Numbered from the stretch's first letter, positions 54,605-64,000 are shown. The stretch is DNA of 64,000 nt from an uncultured Ferrovum sp. (GCA_903863375.1 CAIPBT010000105.1:1-64000); one strand, 5' to 3'. Notes: a model not told the origin generated them from the sequence alone. Program-made: numbers and translations.

Positions 54605-55693
54605 ATGGAAATCACGCAAGCCACGGTGCAGGCCCTGTTGGGTGACCTGGTGGATGCCAACACCGGACGCACGTTTAACGCCGACAAGGCAATCAGCTCG
54701 ATCCGCATCCAGGGCGCCGATGTCGTTGTCGATGTGTCGTTGCGCTACCCGGCACGCCGCACGGCTCCACAGGTCAGCGAGCGCCTGCAGAAAGTGCTGG
54801 CCGGTTTGCCGGACATCGGTTCGGCACAGGTCAACGTCGGCTGGAAAGTGGTATCGCACACGGTGCAGGGCGGCCTCAAACCGCTGACCGGCATCCGCAA
54901 CATCATTGCGGTGGCGTCTGGCAAGGGCGGGGTGGGCAAGTCGACCACCTCGGTCAACTTGGCCCTCGCGCTGCTCGACGAAGGGGCGCGGGTGGGTCTG
55001 CTGGACGCCGACATCTACGGTCCTTCGCAGCCTGCCATGCTGGGCATCCAGGAACGGCCGAGCAGTCTGGACGGCAAGACCATGGAGCCGATCATGGCGC
55101 ATGGCCTGCAGACCATGAGCGTGGGCTTTCTGGTGTCGGACGACACGCCGATGGTCTGGCGGGGGCCCATGGTCACGCAGGCCCTGCAGCAGCTGCTGAC
55201 GGAAACCCGCTGGCAGGATCTGGATTACCTGATCGTCGACATGCCGCCCGGTACCGGCGACATTCAGCTCACCCTGGCGCAGAAGGTGCCGGTCACCGGT
55301 GCGGTGATCGTCACCACGCCGCAGGACATTGCCCTGCTCGACGCCCGCAAGGGCCTGAAGATGTTCGAGAAGGTTGGCGTACCGATCCTCGGCATCATCG
55401 AAAACATGAGCACCCACGTGTGCACGGCCTGCGGTCACGAAGAGCATATCTTTGGCAGCGGCGGAGGCGCGCGGATGTGTGCGGATTACGGTGTCGACCT
55501 TCTCGGCGAACTGCCGCTTGACCTGCGCATCCGTGAACACACGGATGCGGGTGCGCCCACCGTGGCCGTCGACCCCCAGGGCAAGATCGCCGATGCGTAC
55601 CGCACCATTGCCCGCAAGGTGGCAGTCAAGGTGGCGGAACGCGGCGAGGATCACAGCGCCAAGTTTCCGAAGATCGTCATCAAGAACGGCTGA
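54605..55693 (+). CDS. apbC: Mrp/ApbC Fe-S cluster carrier ATPase
   Basis: [55 protein letters not shown]. Confidence 0.96.
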
Positions 55694-55701
55694 TCCCCGC
55701 C

Positions 55702-56310
55702 ATGGCAGGCGATGACGGCCGGCAGGGGGCGCCCGGCCAGGCGCGGCCGGTACCCGGCACCGGCACGGAGACGGATGGCGTGGTGATCCGCGCCGCCTCG
55801 CTCACCGAGGCGGGTGCTGTCGCGCGCATCTACATCGACTGCTGGCATTCCGGGTATCACGGCATCCTGCCGGCGGCCTTTGCCGAGCGGCTCGACCTGG
55901 CCGACCAGACCGAAATCTGGCACGCGGCCATCCGAACCCCGGGCAATGCCACGTTGGTGGCGGTCTCGGCGACTGGCGAGCTGGTCGGCTTTGTGTGTGG
56001 CGGCCCCGAGCGTTCGGGCAGCACCGCGTTTTTTGCCGAAATCTATGGTCTGTACGTGCTGCCGGAGCATCGTGAGCGGGCGGTTGGTCGCCGGCTGTTC
56101 CTGGGGTTTTGCCGCCAGCTCACGGCGATCGGTCTGCGCTCGCTGCTGGTGCGCGTCCTCGAGGCCAATCCGATCTGCGGGTTCTACGAACGGCTCGGAG
56201 CCAGCGAGCAGGAAAACCGGCTCGTCCGCGTGGCCGGCCGGTCGCTCAACGAAGTGGCGTATGGCTGGCGCGACATCTCGCCGGCCACCCGCAAAAGCGA
56301 CCGCGCCTGA
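55702..56310 (+). CDS. GNAT family N-acetyltransferase
   Basis: VIRAASLTEAGAVARIYIDCWHSGYHGILPAAF...YGLYVLPEHRERAVGRRLFLGF. Confidence 0.88.
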   Translation: MAGDDGRQGAPGQARPVPGTGTETDGVVIRAASLTEAGAVARIYIDCWHSGYHGILPAAFAERLDLADQTEIWHAAIRTPGNATLVAVSATGELVGFVCGGPERSGSTAFFAEIYGLYVLPEHRERAVGRRLFLGFCRQLTAIGLRSLLVRVLEANPICGFYERLGASEQENRLVRVAGRSLNEVAYGWRDISPATRKSDRA

Positions 56311-56370
56311 GGCCCGGTTGCACGGTTTCAGCCTTCATCCGTCCATTCCCCCTTAACGAGTATCCGGGAC

Positions 56371-56940
56371 ATGAGCATCAAATCCGACCGCTGGATCCGC
56401 CAGATGGCGCGGGAACACGGCATGATCGAGCCCTTCGAGGCCGATCAGGTCAAGCACGTGAACGGTCAGCGTGTGGTGTCCTTCGGCACGTCGAGCTACG
56501 GCTACGACATCCGCTGTTCCGACGAATTCAAGCTGTTCACCAACCTGAACTCGACGATTGTCGATCCAAAGAATTTCGACCCGAATTCCTTCGTCGACGT
56601 GAAGAGTGACGTCTGCATCATCCCGCCCAACTCCTTTGCCCTGGCGCGCACGGTGGAGTACTTCCGCATTCCGCGCAACGTACTGACCATCTGCCTCGGC
56701 AAAAGCACGTACGCCCGTTGCGGCATCATCGTCAACGTCACACCGTTCGAGCCGGAATGGGAGGGCTTCGTCACGCTCGAATTCAGCAACACCACGCCGC
56801 TGCCCGCCAAGATCTATGCGAACGAGGGGGTAGCCCAGGTGCTGTTTTTTGAATCGGATGAGCCTTGCGAGGTCAGCTACGCCGATCGTGGCGGCAAATA
56901 TCAGGGCCAACGCGGCGTGACCCTGCCGCGCATGGGCTAA
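56371..56940 (+). CDS. dcd: dCTP deaminase
   Basis: [23 protein letters not shown]...[14 protein letters not shown]...[10 protein letters not shown]. Confidence 0.97.
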
Positions 56941-57725: not shown

Positions 57726-58736
57726 TCAGCGCAGCACCCGCTGGATCGCCACCACGCGGCCGGTCACGAGCAGGCTCTGGCCATCCGCCGGGCCGGCCAG
57801 CGCGGCGCCTGCCGCACCCTGTTCGGGCACTGACCAACGGTAGTCGCCGGGCGGGTAAGTCACCGCTGGCGTCCGCGACAGCAGCAGTGACGGCCTTGGC
57901 ACCCCGCCTGGCGACCCTCCGGGCCCCGCCTGAACCGGGTTGGCGCACCACCAGCCTTCGTCCAGTTGGGCAAGCGGATTGTCGCAACGGACGACGATCC
58001 GTCCATCCACGCTGCGCACCAGGCGGCGCACCAGCGGTTCGTGCGCGATGGCCTGACTCCGCCAGGCAGGGGCGGTCGGCTCCTGGTTCACCGCCTGCAG
58101 GCAGAAGATGCCGTCCCGCCACGGCAGGGGCGGAGCCTGTTGCAGCGCCACCCAGTCGCCGGGTTGCAGGGTGGGAGACATGCTGTCCCCGTCAATGCGA
58201 TGCCAGTGGACTTCGCCTGGCGGCCCTCCGGGGGGTTGCGGCCCCGCCTCGCCCAACCGGCCAGGGTCCAACCGGCCAGGATCCAGCCCGCCAACGTGGG
58301 CAGCGCCGCCAATTCCGGCATCCCCGCCAACGTGGGCAGCGCCGGCCGCGTTGCCGGGCGCAACCGTGTGCAACGCATCTCCTTCTGACCCGCCAGCGGC
58401 GGCCTCGCGACCCTCAGCCCAGCCCGGGTAGCGGTCAATCGGGATCGCTCCGGCAGCCGGACCGCCCGCCGTGGCGGTCCGACCGGTCGCCGGGACGGCA
58501 AGCCGGCCAAACAGCAGCCAGTCGGCGCCACAACGCACGGTATCCATGATCTGGAGCAGCTTGTCGACGCTGGGATAGCTGTTGCCTTCGCACCAGTCGC
58601 GTGCGGCCACGGGGGATACCGAAAAAAGCCGCGCGATCGCGGTGAACCTGCCGCGTTGCTTGGGCGGAATGTCGAGGGCATCAAATGCCTCATTCAGCCT
58701 GCGCGCAAAGCCAGCCTTGCCTTCCTGGACGTCCAT
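57726..58736 (-). CDS. XRE/CI-like repressor with S24 (LexA-like) C-terminal domain
   Basis: HTH N-term (FTAIARLFSVSPVAARDWCEGNSYPSVDKLLQIMD), S24 motif HRIDGDSMSPTLQPGDWVALQQ; divergent from the activator operon. Confidence 0.88.
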   Translation of the reverse strand: MDVQEGKAGFARRLNEAFDALDIPPKQRGRFTAIARLFSVSPVAARDWCEGNSYPSVDKLLQIMDTVRCGADWLLFGRLAVPATGRTATAGGPAAGAIPIDRYPGWAEGREAAAGGSEGDALHTVAPGNAAGAAHVGGDAGIGGAAHVGGLDPGRLDPGRLGEAGPQPPGGPPGEVHWHRIDGDSMSPTLQPGDWVALQQAPPLPWRDGIFCLQAVNQEPTAPAWRSQAIAHEPLVRRLVRSVDGRIVVRCDNPLAQLDEGWWCANPVQAGPGGSPGGVPRPSLLLSRTPAVTYPPGDYRWSVPEQGAAGAALAGPADGQSLLVTGRVVAIQRVLR

Positions 58737-58770
58737 GCGGACCTCTCTGGTCCCGGTGAAGAATTAAAAG

Positions 58771-58783
58771 TAAGTGAAACTTA
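58771..58783. promoter_or_regulatory. Operator-like palindrome TAAGTgaaACTTA in the divergent intergenic region
   Basis: Perfect 5-bp arms with 3-bp spacer, 35 bp upstream of the repressor start in an AT-rich region. Confidence 0.35.
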
Positions 58784-58971
58784 TATTTGTTCGCGATTTT
58801 TGGCAAGTTTTCTGCCGCCCGCCAGACGTTAAAGCAGAAATTTACGCTCTTACTTGGTTTTTGCCCGCCAGTCATCCCCCGTTAGTCTATGACCTATGGC
58901 CAATTGCCAAGCAATGCCTACGTAATAAAATAAGCAACGCCTATTTTTTTCTGGTCCAGGAGGGTTGTGTC

Positions 58972-59286
58972 ATGCCAAGAATTGATCCATCGATTGCTGA
59001 ACTGAACCTGAATTTCCTGCATCTTGTCCGCGAATCCTTGCTGCGTAACCGTCTGCTGGCCCTGAGCGAATTCCAGCTCGAGGCGCGGACGGCTGACCGG
59101 CTGCTGGCCCTGTCGCACGACCAGTTGCGACGCCTGGCAGAGGCCCATGTCCTGCTGGTCGGCCTGCGCTGGCGTCGCGCGGCGGTCTGGACCTGCCTGA
59201 CCGAATTCGCGTCGGGGCGCGCAAGCGCGCTGCCTCAGGCCCTGGTTGTCGCCGAAACGGAGGTGCAGGATGGCTACCAGGCGTGA
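58972..59286 (+). CDS. FlhD-like transcriptional activator subunit (SetD/AcaD-like role proposed)
   Basis: MPRIDPSIAELNLNFLHLVRESLLRNRLLALSEFQLEARTADRLLALSHDQLRRLAEAHVLLVGLRWR matches the FlhD pattern (LNLxxLxLxRxxL...LxxLxxxQxxxLAExxxLxxxxRw); AGGAGG upstream. Confidence 0.8.
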   Translation: MPRIDPSIAELNLNFLHLVRESLLRNRLLALSEFQLEARTADRLLALSHDQLRRLAEAHVLLVGLRWRRAAVWTCLTEFASGRASALPQALVVAETEVQDGYQA

Positions 59287-59839
59287 GCTGAGCCAGGAAA
59301 TCCAGCGTTATCGTCAGGCCGAGGCCCTGTTACGTCTGGGGCTGCGCGTGCCGGTGGTCTGCGAAATGACGCGGCTTTCGCACTGGTTCCTGCGCAAGCT
59401 GGCACTGGAAATCTCTGGCGAGGCGCCGGCCAAGGGGCAGGTGCCCAATTCCGAACTGTGGTATCTGCGCGGCCGCAACAATCTGCATGCCTCGTTGTTC
59501 CTGTCGCTTTACCGGCCGCTGCAGCAGGTCGCGGATGATGCGGTTGAGCCCGCCGAGATGCTGATCGTGGCCTTTCAGCGATACCGCGAAATCATTGAGG
59601 CGGCGGGCCTGCCCGAGGTTCTCACACCCGACCGGGCCTGGTGGTTGCTCAAGTCGGTGCGCATCCCGAGTCTCAAGGCCATCGAGTGCCAGCAGTGCGG
59701 CGGGCGGTATCTGATGCATCAGGAAGATCTGCCCGGCCCCTATCGCTGCGTGTGCTGCCTGGCCCGGCCGTCGTTGCCGGATGCCGCGCTGGCCGATGCG
59801 AGCCGGCCGGATGCTGCCCGTTCCGTGTCCTTCCGGTGA
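59270..59839 (+). CDS. FlhC-like transcriptional activator subunit (SetC/AcaC-like role proposed)
   Basis: MATRRELSQEIQRYRQAEALLRLGLRVPVVCEMTRLSHWFLRKLALEISGEAPAKGQVPNSELWYL...; zinc motif CQQC-x16-CVCC has the C-x2-C-x16-C-x2-C spacing I recall for E. coli FlhC; 17-bp overlap with the FlhD-like gene. Confidence 0.85.
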   Translation: MATRRELSQEIQRYRQAEALLRLGLRVPVVCEMTRLSHWFLRKLALEISGEAPAKGQVPNSELWYLRGRNNLHASLFLSLYRPLQQVADDAVEPAEMLIVAFQRYREIIEAAGLPEVLTPDRAWWLLKSVRIPSLKAIECQQCGGRYLMHQEDLPGPYRCVCCLARPSLPDAALADASRPDAARSVSFR

Positions 59840-59845
59840 TCGGTC

Positions 59846-60730
59846 GTGCCATTCCGTCCCGCTCTGCTGCCATCGGTGCCATCGGTACCAACCGCCGGGT
59901 CTGCCAAGGCCGCAGCGACCGCGTCGCAACGGCTGTTGCTGGCACCCCTTCGGCCGACCGAGGTGGTGCTCGCAGGCCATCATGGCGCCCTACGGGCCTT
60001 GTTCCACGCCTTGGGAGAACCCATGCCCTGGTTCCGCCGCCACGCCATGCCGCTGGTGCAGCAATGGGAATCCTGGAGCGCGGAACTGGCACCTTCTGGC
60101 GTGCCCCGGGTGGCAGCCCGGCGCTCTCCATCACCCGCGCTACCGGGTCCGGCGGGAGCGCTGCCGCTGCAACTGGATCACTTCCTGCAGCTGGCCGTGG
60201 TGGCGGCGCGGCAGGTTCCGGCCACCTCCGGTGATGCGCCCTGGCCGCGCCTGCGCGCCGCGCATCTCGCCGTGCTGGAGGCGCAATGGCGCGGTGTCGA
60301 GGCCGCCACCATCCAAAGTGCCGGTGCCTGTTGGTCCCCGACGCGCGGTTCGCTGCGCGGCTGGCGCCGGTGTCATCCTGGTCCGGCCCATCTGGTGCTG
60401 GAAGACGCAGCCCTGCGGGCAGACCCCTGGCGTCGCGCCAGTCAGACGCTGGCAGCGCGTGGTATCTGGCGGCCCGGACATTGCGACCGCTGGTTGCGTG
60501 AGACCGAGGGCTGGGCCCTGTTGTGGCCCTTGGCAGGACGCGATCTGCTGACCACCCTGGCCGCCGCTGACCTGCATCTGCCCGATGTCGAGGCCGTCCG
60601 CCAGGGGCTTGCCCACTGGGGGCATCTGCGTCCTGGCCGGCATACCTGTCATGACTGGGTGCGGGCGGATGGCCGGGTGCTGCAGGGCCTGTCGGTTGCC
60701 AACAGCCTGCTGCCGGTGGAGCTGGACTGA
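59846..60730 (+). CDS. Hypothetical protein in conjugation-like operon
   Basis: 294-aa ORF, 6 bp after the FlhC-like stop and 1 bp before the TraD-like start. Confidence 0.65.
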   Translation: MPFRPALLPSVPSVPTAGSAKAAATASQRLLLAPLRPTEVVLAGHHGALRALFHALGEPMPWFRRHAMPLVQQWESWSAELAPSGVPRVAARRSPSPALPGPAGALPLQLDHFLQLAVVAARQVPATSGDAPWPRLRAAHLAVLEAQWRGVEAATIQSAGACWSPTRGSLRGWRRCHPGPAHLVLEDAALRADPWRRASQTLAARGIWRPGHCDRWLRETEGWALLWPLAGRDLLTTLAAADLHLPDVEAVRQGLAHWGHLRPGRHTCHDWVRADGRVLQGLSVANSLLPVELD

Positions 60731-60731
60731 G

Positions 60732-62369
60732 ATGCCGGGCGGCGCATCGATTCCCTGGCCGGCGTTTGCCTGGGCCATCGGCCTGGTCTGGCTGGCCGGC
60801 CTGCCTGCCGTGCCGGTGGCCGCGCTGCTGGTCTGTCTGACCACAGAAATCCTGATCCACAGCCTGGGTGCCGCCGGCCGGTCGCACCGCTCCGACCGTC
60901 TGCCTTTCTCGGCCAGCGCCCTGGCCAGCCTGATGGCGCGCCGTCCGTCAGGGCAGGTACTGCTGGGACGGGGTGGACCCTGGCTGCCACACCACACGGC
61001 GGCCCTGCTGGCAGAAACCGCGCCTGTGGCGGGATTGCGGGAGGGCCCGGCACGTCAGCGCAGCGCCCCCTGGGTGGATTGCGCGGCAGGACTGATGGCC
61101 CGTCATGTGCTGGCGGTGGGTGCCCCGGGCAGCGGCAAGAGCAGCCTGCTGGTTCTGCTGGCCTGGCAGGCGCAACGGCGGGGCGAGGCGCTCCTGGTGC
61201 TCGATCCGAAGGGCTCGCGGATATTCTCTGCCCAGTTGGCGGCGGGTGCCCGCCAGGCGGGTGTGCCCTTCCTGGCCCTGCTGCCGGGTCAGCCCGGACA
61301 GTCGGTGACCTACGATCCCTTGCAGCATTGCGCCGATGCGGCTGCCGTGGCCAGCCGTCTGTGCGGCCTGCTCGGCGCAGGTCGTGAGGATCCGTTCCGT
61401 ACGTTCTGCTGGGGCGCCCTCGCCACGCTCACCGAGGCCCTGCTGGTGCGCGGCTTGCCGGTCAGCATCGGGCTGCTGCACCACCATCTCGCCGATGCCG
61501 GCAGCGCGCTGCTGCAGCAGCCGGCAACCACGGAAGACGACGTTGACCCGGCGCGCTGGTCGGCCGCACAGGCCGCGCTCATACTGCTGGCAGGCCATGA
61601 TCGCACCCACTATCGCAAGATGACGGCTGGCCTGCTGCCGCTGTTCACGCTGCTCGACAGCGGTCCAGTGGCCAGTGTGCTGCAGTCTGCCGCCGCACCT
61701 GCCCGGGCGGACATGGTCGCCGATCTGCAGGATGCGGTCCTGCGTCCGGCCCTGGATCTTGCCCATCTCGCCCGTCAGTCCATCACGGTCTACGTCGGCC
61801 TCGACGCGTTGGCCAATCCGGTACTGGCGCGTGCCCTGGCCCATCTGCTGCTGGAAGACCTGGCTGCCCTCGCTGCGGTCCGGATGACGCAGGCTGGCAG
61901 GGTGCCAAACCTGCACCTGGTGGTCGACGAGGCTGGCGAGATCGCGTGCGAACCCCTGCTGCAGCTGCTCGGCAAGGGCCGTGAGGCGAATCTCCAGATC
62001 CTGCTCGCCGTGCAGACCCTGGCCGATCTCGAGTGGCGCCTGGAAAGTCGTGCGGCCGCCCGCGTTGCGGAAGGCAATGCCGGGGCCTGGTTTCTGTTCC
62101 GGCAGCTGGATGCGGAAACCCGGCGCGCGTCGGAGGCCCGGCTCGGCTCCCTGCCGACGGCGCGGCCGACCGCCAGCAGCAGCTCCGCCAAAAGTGTCGG
62201 ACCGCATGGTCTGCAGCGCGCGAACACCCAGGCGGCTTCGGTCACCCGCGAATATCTGCCGCGCGTGCCCGAGGCGGTTTTTGCATCCCTCGCCGATCTG
62301 GAGTGTCTGGCCCAGCTGCCGGATGGCCAGTTGCTGCATCTGCGGCTGCCCCGGCCGGAGGTGCGGTGA
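60732..62369 (+). CDS. TraD/VirD4-type conjugative coupling protein
   Basis: N-terminal TM segments, Walker A AVGAPGSGKSSLLVLLAWQAQRRGEALLVLDPKGSR, LHLVVDEAGEIACEPLLQLLGKGREANLQILLAVQTLADLE. Confidence 0.88.
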   Translation: MPGGASIPWPAFAWAIGLVWLAGLPAVPVAALLVCLTTEILIHSLGAAGRSHRSDRLPFSASALASLMARRPSGQVLLGRGGPWLPHHTAALLAETAPVAGLREGPARQRSAPWVDCAAGLMARHVLAVGAPGSGKSSLLVLLAWQAQRRGEALLVLDPKGSRIFSAQLAAGARQAGVPFLALLPGQPGQSVTYDPLQHCADAAAVASRLCGLLGAGREDPFRTFCWGALATLTEALLVRGLPVSIGLLHHHLADAGSALLQQPATTEDDVDPARWSAAQAALILLAGHDRTHYRKMTAGLLPLFTLLDSGPVASVLQSAAAPARADMVADLQDAVLRPALDLAHLARQSITVYVGLDALANPVLARALAHLLLEDLAALAAVRMTQAGRVPNLHLVVDEAGEIACEPLLQLLGKGREANLQILLAVQTLADLEWRLESRAAARVAEGNAGAWFLFRQLDAETRRASEARLGSLPTARPTASSSSAKSVGPHGLQRANTQAASVTREYLPRVPEAVFASLADLECLAQLPDGQLLHLRLPRPEVR

Positions 62370-62968
62370 AGCGCGCCTGGGTCTGGCCGCGCCAGGTGGT
62401 GTGCTGGCTGGTGACAGGACTTGCGCCGGGGCTGTTCCTGCCGCACGCCAGCGCTTGGCATCGCGCCCTGGTCGCCGCCGGGCCAGAGCTGCAGGCAACA
62501 CTCGGAGCGGCCCTGGCGGGGCTGGTCGGGCAAACCGCGAACGGGCTGCTGCGCGCCAGTGAATTGATCCTGCTCGATGGCGACGGCCGGTACTGGCTGG
62601 TCCGCCTGCGTCCCTGGTTCGCGGATGCGTGGATCCAGGGCTGGCAGCTGGCGCCCCTGTACAGTTTTCTGCATCTGACCGCGCTGGGTCTTTGGTTGGG
62701 CCTGTTGCTGCCGTTGGCGTGGCTGGTGGGTCGCCGGCACGGGTCATCTGGTCTGCTTCCGACGCCAGCGCAGGGCGGCTGGAGTGCCCTGTACGGCACG
62801 CCCTGGTGGCAGCGCGCCATGCCGCTGCTGCCCCTGTTTACGCTGCTCTGGAGCCTGCAGGGCGGTGCCTGGGAATGGACGCCCCTGGTGGCTGCAGCGT
62901 GGCTGTATGCGGCCCGCTGGCTGTGGCAGGTTCCGGGCAGAGGGATGGGCGGCCATGGCAGGGGATGA
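62366..62968 (+). CDS. Multi-pass membrane protein of conjugation-like operon
   Basis: GTG start overlapping the TraD-like stop; VKRAWVWPRQVVCWLVTGLAPGLFLPHASAW..., at least four hydrophobic segments. Confidence 0.7.
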   Translation: MKRAWVWPRQVVCWLVTGLAPGLFLPHASAWHRALVAAGPELQATLGAALAGLVGQTANGLLRASELILLDGDGRYWLVRLRPWFADAWIQGWQLAPLYSFLHLTALGLWLGLLLPLAWLVGRRHGSSGLLPTPAQGGWSALYGTPWWQRAMPLLPLFTLLWSLQGGAWEWTPLVAAAWLYAARWLWQVPGRGMGGHGRG

Positions 62969-64000
62969 GACCGGTACCGCCGATGGCCATGCCGAACGGC
63001 TGCTCGCGTACTTGCTCAGACCCCTGTCCGCGCTGCTGGCCGATCCGGCCGTCACCGAAATCCTGGTGAATGGACCTCAGGCGGTCTGGCAGGAGCGGGC
63101 AGGGTGCCTGCAGGCCGTACCGATTGTTCTCGCACCATCCCTGGTGGCGACGCTGGCCCGGGCTCTGGCAACCCTCGCCAGACAACCGGGTTTTGCCGTC
63201 CATGGCATTCTCGAAACCGCGTGGCAGGAATGGCGGGTGACGGCAGTCCTGCCACCGGTTGCACGCGACCACGCGCTGTTGTGCCTGCGTAGGCACCGCG
63301 CCGCAGCTCTGCCATTGCAGGCCTGGGGGGTATCGCCCGGCGCGCGCGCCGGCGATCGCGCAGCGCGAGCCGTCGACGATGCCCGCACCGCTCTGTATCG
63401 CCGGCCCCCGAGCGACCTGCCATCGCTGCTGACGGCGGTGGTTGCCAGCCGCTGCAATGTCCTTATCTCCGGGGGGACCGGCACGGGCAAGACCAGTCTG
63501 CTCGCCAGCCTGATGGCGCAAATCGGCGCCGGCGAACGCCTGCTGACGCTGGAGGACACCCCGGAGTTGCCGGTCGCCTGCGCCCATCAGGTCCGTCTGC
63601 TCGCGTCGGCGGGACAGGACCTGCGCGCCCTGCTGCGCCTGGCCTTGCGCCTGCGCCCCGACCGCCTGGTGGTGGGAGAAGTGCGCGGCAGTGAGGCGTT
63701 TGACCTGTTGCAGGCGATGGCCACCGGACATGCCGGCAGCATGGGCACCCTGCATGCCGATCATGCCATGGGAGCGCTGGCCCGTCTGGAGCAGCTGGTC
63801 CTGACCACCGGCCTGGCCTGGCCGGTGTCGGCCGTACGTCAGCAGATCGCCTCTTGTATCGAGGTGCTGGTGCAGGTGCAGCGCACCGGCGGGGGGCGCC
63901 AGGTCACCGCCGTGCATCAGCTGACCGGTCTGTCTGGCGATGGCGAATATCGGCTGGTACCGCTCTGGCCCCGGGTCGGTGCCCGACCGGGACAACGGCC
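62955..64000 (+). CDS. VirB11/TrbB/CpaF-like secretion ATPase (3' end off window)
   Basis: ATG at 62955, frame open to window end (absent from ORF track). LISGGTGTGKTSLLASLMAQIGAGERLLTLEDTPEL; LRLRPDRLVVGEVRGSEAFDLLQAMATGHAGSMGTLHAD. Confidence 0.9.
   Translation, partial: MAGDETGTADGHAERLLAYLLRPLSALLADPAVTEILVNGPQAVWQERAGCLQAVPIVLAPSLVATLARALATLARQPGFAVHGILETAWQEWRVTAVLPPVARDHALLCLRRHRAAALPLQAWGVSPGARAGDRAARAVDDARTALYRRPPSDLPSLLTAVVASRCNVLISGGTGTGKTSLLASLMAQIGAGERLLTLEDTPELPVACAHQVRLLASAGQDLRALLRLALRLRPDRLVVGEVRGSEAFDLLQAMATGHAGSMGTLHADHAMGALARLEQLVLTTGLAWPVSAVRQQIASCIEVLVQVQRTGGGRQVTAVHQLTGLSGDGEYRLVPLWPRVGARPGQR

Follow-up and report, generated by a model that had tools for sequence, protein, structure and literature searches.

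An FlhDC-headed, probably domesticated type IV secretion region of conjugative ancestry in the chromosomes of Ferrovaceae

Our analysis of a stretch of DNA from an uncultured Ferrovum sp. suggests, with a probability, whatever the substrate, that we put at about 0.6, that an ancestor of the Ferrovaceae domesticated an FlhDC-headed MOBH/MPF_T transfer region, which then served as a type IV secretion system (T4SS) no longer used for conjugation. That region would have come from an ancient conjugative plasmid or ICE of the MOBH/MPF_T kind and would already have included an FlhDC-type master activator; the T4SS proper (VirB1-like, B2-B6, B8-B11 and TraD) would have stayed intact under selection, while its relaxase degraded to a companion protein, X. 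FlhD and FlhC would form the usual heteromeric activator and switch on their own operon, and probably activate a separate VirB8-B10 operon as well; a divergent repressor, where present, would hold flhDC off; and the TraD-gated machine would export a substrate other than a plasmid nicked by a relaxase, with protein effectors the likeliest candidates and DNA a less likely one.

The window, i.e. the whole stretch of 64,000 nucleotides that was analysed, covers positions 1-64,000 of a contig 104,884 bp long, from an assembly of 226 contigs that is 97.1% complete, and its host is an uncultured Ferrovum-like clade (genus g1) of the iron-oxidising, betaproteobacterial family Ferrovaceae. The locus at its right-hand end comprises the following features:

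54605-56940, plus strand: chromosomal flank with Mrp/ApbC (54605-55693), a GNAT-like ORF and Dcd (56371-56940; 127.8 bits), synteny by phmmer
57726-58736, minus strand: divergent S24-like repressor with a P22 C2-like helix-turn-helix (sub-threshold Pfam S24 match; alignment with P22 C2)
58771-58783, no strand: dyad TAAGTGAAACTTA near the repressor start, read from the sequence, candidate operator
58879-58908, plus strand: 30-bp element upstream of FlhD, candidate regulator or promoter site (alignment of three repressor-bearing genomes)
58972-59286, plus strand: FlhD-like subunit, 104 aa (Pfam FlhD 37.6 bits, cut-off 27)
59270-59839, plus strand: FlhC-like subunit, 189 aa (Pfam FlhC 107.8-108.1 bits, cut-off 27)
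59846-60730, plus strand: X, degenerate MOBH (TraI_2) relaxase homologue (hhalign profile against TraI_2 profile; motif loss)
60732-62369, plus strand: TraD/VirD4-type coupling ATPase, SXT_TraD-like (top NCBIfam match SXT_TraD, TIGR03743, 250.7 bits; Pfam TrwB_AAD_bind 39.2 bits, cut-off 20.5; TraG-D_C 27.1, cut-off 22)
62366-62968, plus strand: membrane protein, by position only in the DUF4400 place of MOBH elements
62955-64046, plus strand, running past the window end at 64000: VirB11/TrbB-type ATPase (Pfam T2SSE/VirB11 138.3 bits, cut-off 24.9; NCBIfam TrbB_P 181 and VirB11 175 bits)

From FlhD to VirB11, neighbouring genes overlap or abut, with starts read from overlaps and motifs. A sequence-only reading of this DNA had described the same arrangement in a betaproteobacterial host, a VirB11-type T4SS operon opening with FlhDC-type activators, and both the gene order and the Pfam matches uphold it; FlhC, FlhD, VirD4/TraD-type and VirB11 score above their cut-offs, whereas the S24 match of the repressor falls below (16.7 vs. 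23.3 bits). To the right, where that reading had proposed to look for the remainder of a conjugative element, VirB4/TrbE and other T4SS genes were indeed found, but no relaxase or integrase. The contig continues with VirB2 (64096-64509), VirB3 (to 64838; 24.9 bits), VirB4 (64835-67456; CagE_TrbE_VirB 58.1 bits, NCBIfam TrbE 437 bits), TrbJ/VirB5 (67434-68300), VirB6 (68297-69289; profile match of 60.1 bits) and a 132-aa ORF (69279-69677), followed by an opposite-strand ORF, a CoA transferase, XdhC, a MobA-like transferase and further housekeeping genes. A second operon, on contig C97 next to sodB and a chemotaxis-receptor-like gene, encodes VirB8 (101.5 bits), VirB9/CagX (166 bits), VirB10 (167.4 bits) and, after VirB10, a VirB1-like transglycosylase-type protein with a weak SLT match. 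VirB7 was not found; the T4SS gene set is otherwise complete.

The apparatus belongs to the P-type VirB11/Trb class rather than to the F-type. Of the marks of a MOBH/MPF_T system, VirB11, B2-B6, B8-B10 and a coupling protein are present, whereas a relaxase with 3H and HD motifs, a variable position, an integrase and a replicon are missing: no integrase occurs among the main flanking ORFs, no replication function was found beside the T4SS locus, and neither the 64-kb window nor the two following 20-kb stretches contain a tRNA. The membrane protein at 62366-62968 occupies the position of DUF4400 in IncC, Azonexus and pTK9001, and its comparison with DUF4400 by hhalign was not significant (E=0.08). 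We also considered a defence system and rejected it, as PADLOC gave weak generic ATPase matches (mad8) alone.

The relaxase ancestry and motif loss of X are the main finding beyond the sequence-only reading. An initial comparison of X with the TraI_2 profile was weak (38%), and became strong once the alignment was deepened: a profile of 19 Ferrovaceae X proteins matched TraI_2 with 99.8% probability (hhalign, E=2.3e-28), against E values of 0.4-0.9 for three column-shuffled control profiles. Judged by these profiles X is TraI_2-derived, and it sits in the traI position. Canonical MOBH relaxases are marked by the 3H and HD motifs (PMC4036041). IncC, pTK9001, B. glumae and one Burkholderiales genome have both; neither X nor its counterpart in genus g20 retains any of these residues. 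An AlphaFold2 model of X (mean pLDDT 77) gave no PDB match below E=0.001 in Foldseek, its weak list including 2ipq, a DUF1528 domain, and the predicted fold adds nothing decisive. In other FlhC-linked systems and in pHG1, too, the TraI_2 proteins lack most or all 3H/HD residues (L094, L095, L087, L088, L083, L125, L175).

Nor did the 97.1% complete genome contain a match to any of the four relaxase families searched (TraI_2, i.e. MOBH, at E<=0.001; PF03432; TrwC; MobA_MobL), which argues against the conjugation that had been proposed, although a relaxase may have been missed because the assembly consists of 226 contigs. Given that none was found, plasmid DNA is probably not what the system exports. 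Relaxase-less chromosomal T4SSs are usually read as protein exporters (PMC3158045), and domesticated conjugation machines that move cellular DNA are known in archaea (Ced/Ted; PMC9905601); the present system resembles both in being a conjugation-type machine fixed in the chromosome with no relaxase, and it shares with the former VirB4, a coupling protein and stable chromosomal inheritance. Among the relaxase-less T4SSs in the papers searched, we found none that combines an FlhDC regulator with a degenerate relaxase in its operon. Nor did the analysis turn up an effector, an immunity gene or a substrate.

It is possible, albeit unlikely, that the system still transfers DNA, X processing DNA by another route or together with an unrecognised relaxase, and FlhDC triggering the transfer or release of chromosomal DNA. 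The retention of both TraD and X under selection would fit such a role, as would the loss of 3H/HD residues in the Azonexus plasmid and in pHG1, which is typed conjugative: in both, every TraI_2 protein found is degenerate, and searches for PF03432, PF07514 and proteins related to a few of the MOBP, MOBF and MOBQ classes gave no further relaxase. The megaplasmid pHG1 is self-transmissible, so a system may have lost these motifs and still transfer DNA. However, no former catalytic residue is left in X, which is among the faster-evolving genes of the locus (dN/dS 0.16-0.32); neither an integrase nor a replication gene was found next to the locus, and FlhDC-X-TraD is fixed at one site family-wide.

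VirB4 of the window type is present in 25 of 32 Ferrovaceae genomes (44-67% identity in full-length matches), that is, in 25/28 genomes outside genus g4 and in 0/4 within it; T4SS-type FlhC is present in 26/32, all four g4 genomes included, and most also have a separate flagellar FlhC. By phmmer synteny, Mrp-Dcd precede FlhDC at one chromosomal site in every Ferrovaceae genus examined, and in most genera FlhDC lies directly upstream of X and TraD. The other parts of the system likewise have recurrent neighbours: sodB adjoins VirB8-B9-B10 in g1, g7 and g8, and VirB11-B2-B6 follow alr (named by reading the protein) in g2, g3, g5, g7 and g8. In g1 VirB11 follows TraD; because the same order is found in the Azonexus plasmid and in genus g20, g1 probably keeps the older arrangement. 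The Ferrovaceae do not fall strictly on one side of a branch in the VirB4 tree, owing to one long, weakly placed plasmid row.

All genes tested are, by their pairwise dN/dS of <=0.49, under purifying selection, with the lowest values in the closest pairs for FlhD, FlhC and VirB6; FlhD and FlhC span 0-0.18, the value of 0.18 being that of FlhD against its nearest relative. Taken together with the conserved position, these ratios indicate that the region is a fixed, selected chromosomal system rather than a decaying ICE. The sequence-only reading had seen an independent mobile element, an active ICE or plasmid governed by a SetR/SetCD-type switch. The divergent repressor beside FlhDC and the T4SS operon, and the existence of mobile relatives, speak for that idea, but the fixed position next to dcd largely disproves it, and with no relaxase or nearby integrase found, the repressor absent from most relatives and no clear Ser-Lys dyad in it, we regard it as highly improbable.

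A role as a helper, kept for mobilising other elements that bring their own relaxases, appears quite improbable too. MOBP and MOBF relaxases do occur sporadically in other Ferrovaceae genomes; yet the relaxases searched are lacking from the host genome and from most of genus g1, and long-term selection benefiting another element is unlikely.

FlhC of the window conserves the zinc-ligand cysteines C140, C143, C160 and C163 in alignment and matches the solved FlhC structure 2avu (E=1.6e-17). A separate flagellar FlhC is encoded elsewhere in the same genome (Pfam FlhC 276.6 bits), and in a tree of 43 rows flagellar FlhC proteins form one group (SH-aLRT 97) and Ferrovaceae T4SS FlhC proteins another (86); on this phylogeny the window FlhC is not flagellar, as had been expected of a transfer activator. 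In a scan of named genomes, window-type FlhC was found at 21 loci, the informative names being Ferrovum, Ferrovum myxofaciens P3G and Ferrovaceae. A fused or tandem two-domain FlhC occurs in genus g20 (L040:14952-16127, L077, L079) and on the Azonexus plasmid (L125:9028-10221), which suggests a covalent FlhC dimer.

A search for a shared FlhDC box (10-mers with 1 mismatch, 12-mers with 2 mismatches) found no common word in the regions upstream of FlhD, VirB8 and VirB11, nor in controls, and has low power. Control of the whole system by FlhDC is unproven, because these regions share no word and because VirB11-B6 follows alr outside g1.

The N-terminus of the repressor aligns with the helix-turn-helix of P22 C2 and its serine motif, GDSM, is kept, whereas the lysine position is apparently Arg (a column read by eye, with no solved-structure alignment over the domain); the serine is not conserved in the counterparts from g20 and Azonexus. 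The repressor was found in three of the five g1 genomes and in genus g20, and is absent beside FlhDC at the other Ferrovaceae loci examined, i.e. in most relatives. The dyad at 58771-58783 is partly conserved in two relatives that retain the repressor, and the 30-bp element upstream of FlhD is at least partly conserved among the three repressor-bearing genomes and has no word in common with the VirB8 upstream region; both are candidate regulatory sites only. SetR is an SOS-cleaved repressor (PMC4542580). With no repressor in most relatives, and no clear self-cleavage dyad in the one found here, there is no support for an SOS switch like that of SetR; of the SetR/SetCD-like switch proposed earlier, the FlhC/FlhD-type activator pair stands and the repressor half is weak.

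FlhDC could instead be mainly a host regulator for which the T4SS is one dispensable target, a possibility to which we give a clear minority weight and which is compatible with the domesticated T4SS, so that the two weights are not exclusive. It draws on the four genomes of genus g4, which lack a flagellar FlhC, X, TraD and window-type VirB4 and keep FlhDC at the dcd site with dN/dS of 0-0.12; against it, X and TraD lie directly behind FlhDC in most genera.

The g4 loci (L140:8096-8906, L141:8133-8946, L142:8822-9632, L143:9313-10123) have an EamA transporter as the gene after FlhDC and, in their lack of flagellar FlhC, are like the non-motile Ferrovum group 2; FlhDC presumably regulates something else there. 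In another genome (G008; L144:8592-10596, L034), VirB11-B6 and FlhDC are present and an EamA transporter follows FlhC; FlhDC has no TraD next to it there, nor did TraD give a match at E<=1e-40.

A more elaborate version of the domestication, in which a family-wide, vertically inherited T4SS uses the dead MOBH relaxase as a coupling-protein adaptor for non-conjugative export, and FlhDC, turned into a host regulator, persists in non-motile species after the T4SS is lost, is put forward tentatively, at somewhat less than even odds.

FlhDC-type activators are known for SXT/R391, IncA/C, Rts1 and SGI1-like elements, which own or depend upon an F-type apparatus. As would be the case in the window, FlhC/FlhD-type activators control the transfer region in SXT/R391 (SetR-SetCD), IncA/C (AcaCD) and Rts1 (SetCD); IncC also has the TraI-TraD-DUF4400 order, and SXT_TraD is the TraD family of the window. 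These elements differ in their F-type mating apparatus, a relaxase with 3H and HD motifs, mobility and an SOS-cleavable SetR, and SetC/AcaC are very weak FlhC relatives (PMC4542580), in contrast to the 108 bits of the window FlhC to Pfam FlhC. A more distant analogue is BisDC of ICEclc, a complex resembling FlhC that activates transfer competence (PMC7423338), in which BisC is a DUF2857 protein, BisD a ParB-domain protein, and no FlhD domain was detected.

Among the closest counterparts is a 318-kb plasmid of Azonexus hydrophilus (NZ_CP151407.1) with an FlhC-traI-traD-VirB11 order like that of the window, a MOBH-like TraI and a VirB11-type T4SS: a LexA-type regulator is divergent from a short ORF, followed by FlhC, mobH, traD, a hypothetical gene, DUF4400, VirB11, B2, B3, B4, B5, B6, B8, B9 and B10. 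It differs in being plasmid-borne, in its two-domain FlhC and in the type IVb pilus region that follows; its TraI_2 protein is full length (619 aa) and annotated as a MobH family relaxase, yet lacks the 3H and HD residues. The Cupriavidus necator megaplasmid pHG1 shares a VirB11-type T4SS, TraD, DUF4400, a degenerate TraI_2 and an FlhC-family regulator, but is a plasmid with another gene order and has its FlhC gene ~20 kb from the VirB11 operon. The combination of FlhC-family and VirB11-type genes recurs in several Burkholderiales genomes, and the same architecture in another Burkholderiales genus; the new architecture claimed from the sequence was thus overstated, as the combination is not new in nature. 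We found no literature describing an FlhC-family gene with a VirB11-type system, and these loci place an FlhDC-type regulator on such a system, beyond the F-type elements.

The stages of domestication are documented by a plasmid with the same order, by lost relaxase motifs and by an operon split over fixed chromosomal loci. Several questions become testable: the role of a relaxase-less T4SS in free-living iron oxidisers, the purpose of a relaxase without catalytic residues, and the takeover of FlhDC as a non-flagellar host regulator. Papers on Ferrovum from 2016 took the T4SS as a sign of conjugation, reported VirB1 and VirB7 as absent and VirD4 as missing in F. myxofaciens, and made no mention of FlhDC (PMC4886054); our results extend them with the VirB1-like SLT protein of the window's genome and with a gene for a TraD-type coupling protein, which follows FlhDC at the dcd locus of Ferrovum myxofaciens P3G (L114:12305-13078). 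By eye, the N-terminal part of the VirB1-like SLT protein (L027:7243-8301), for which Pfam gives no such match, resembles a thermonuclease (SNase).
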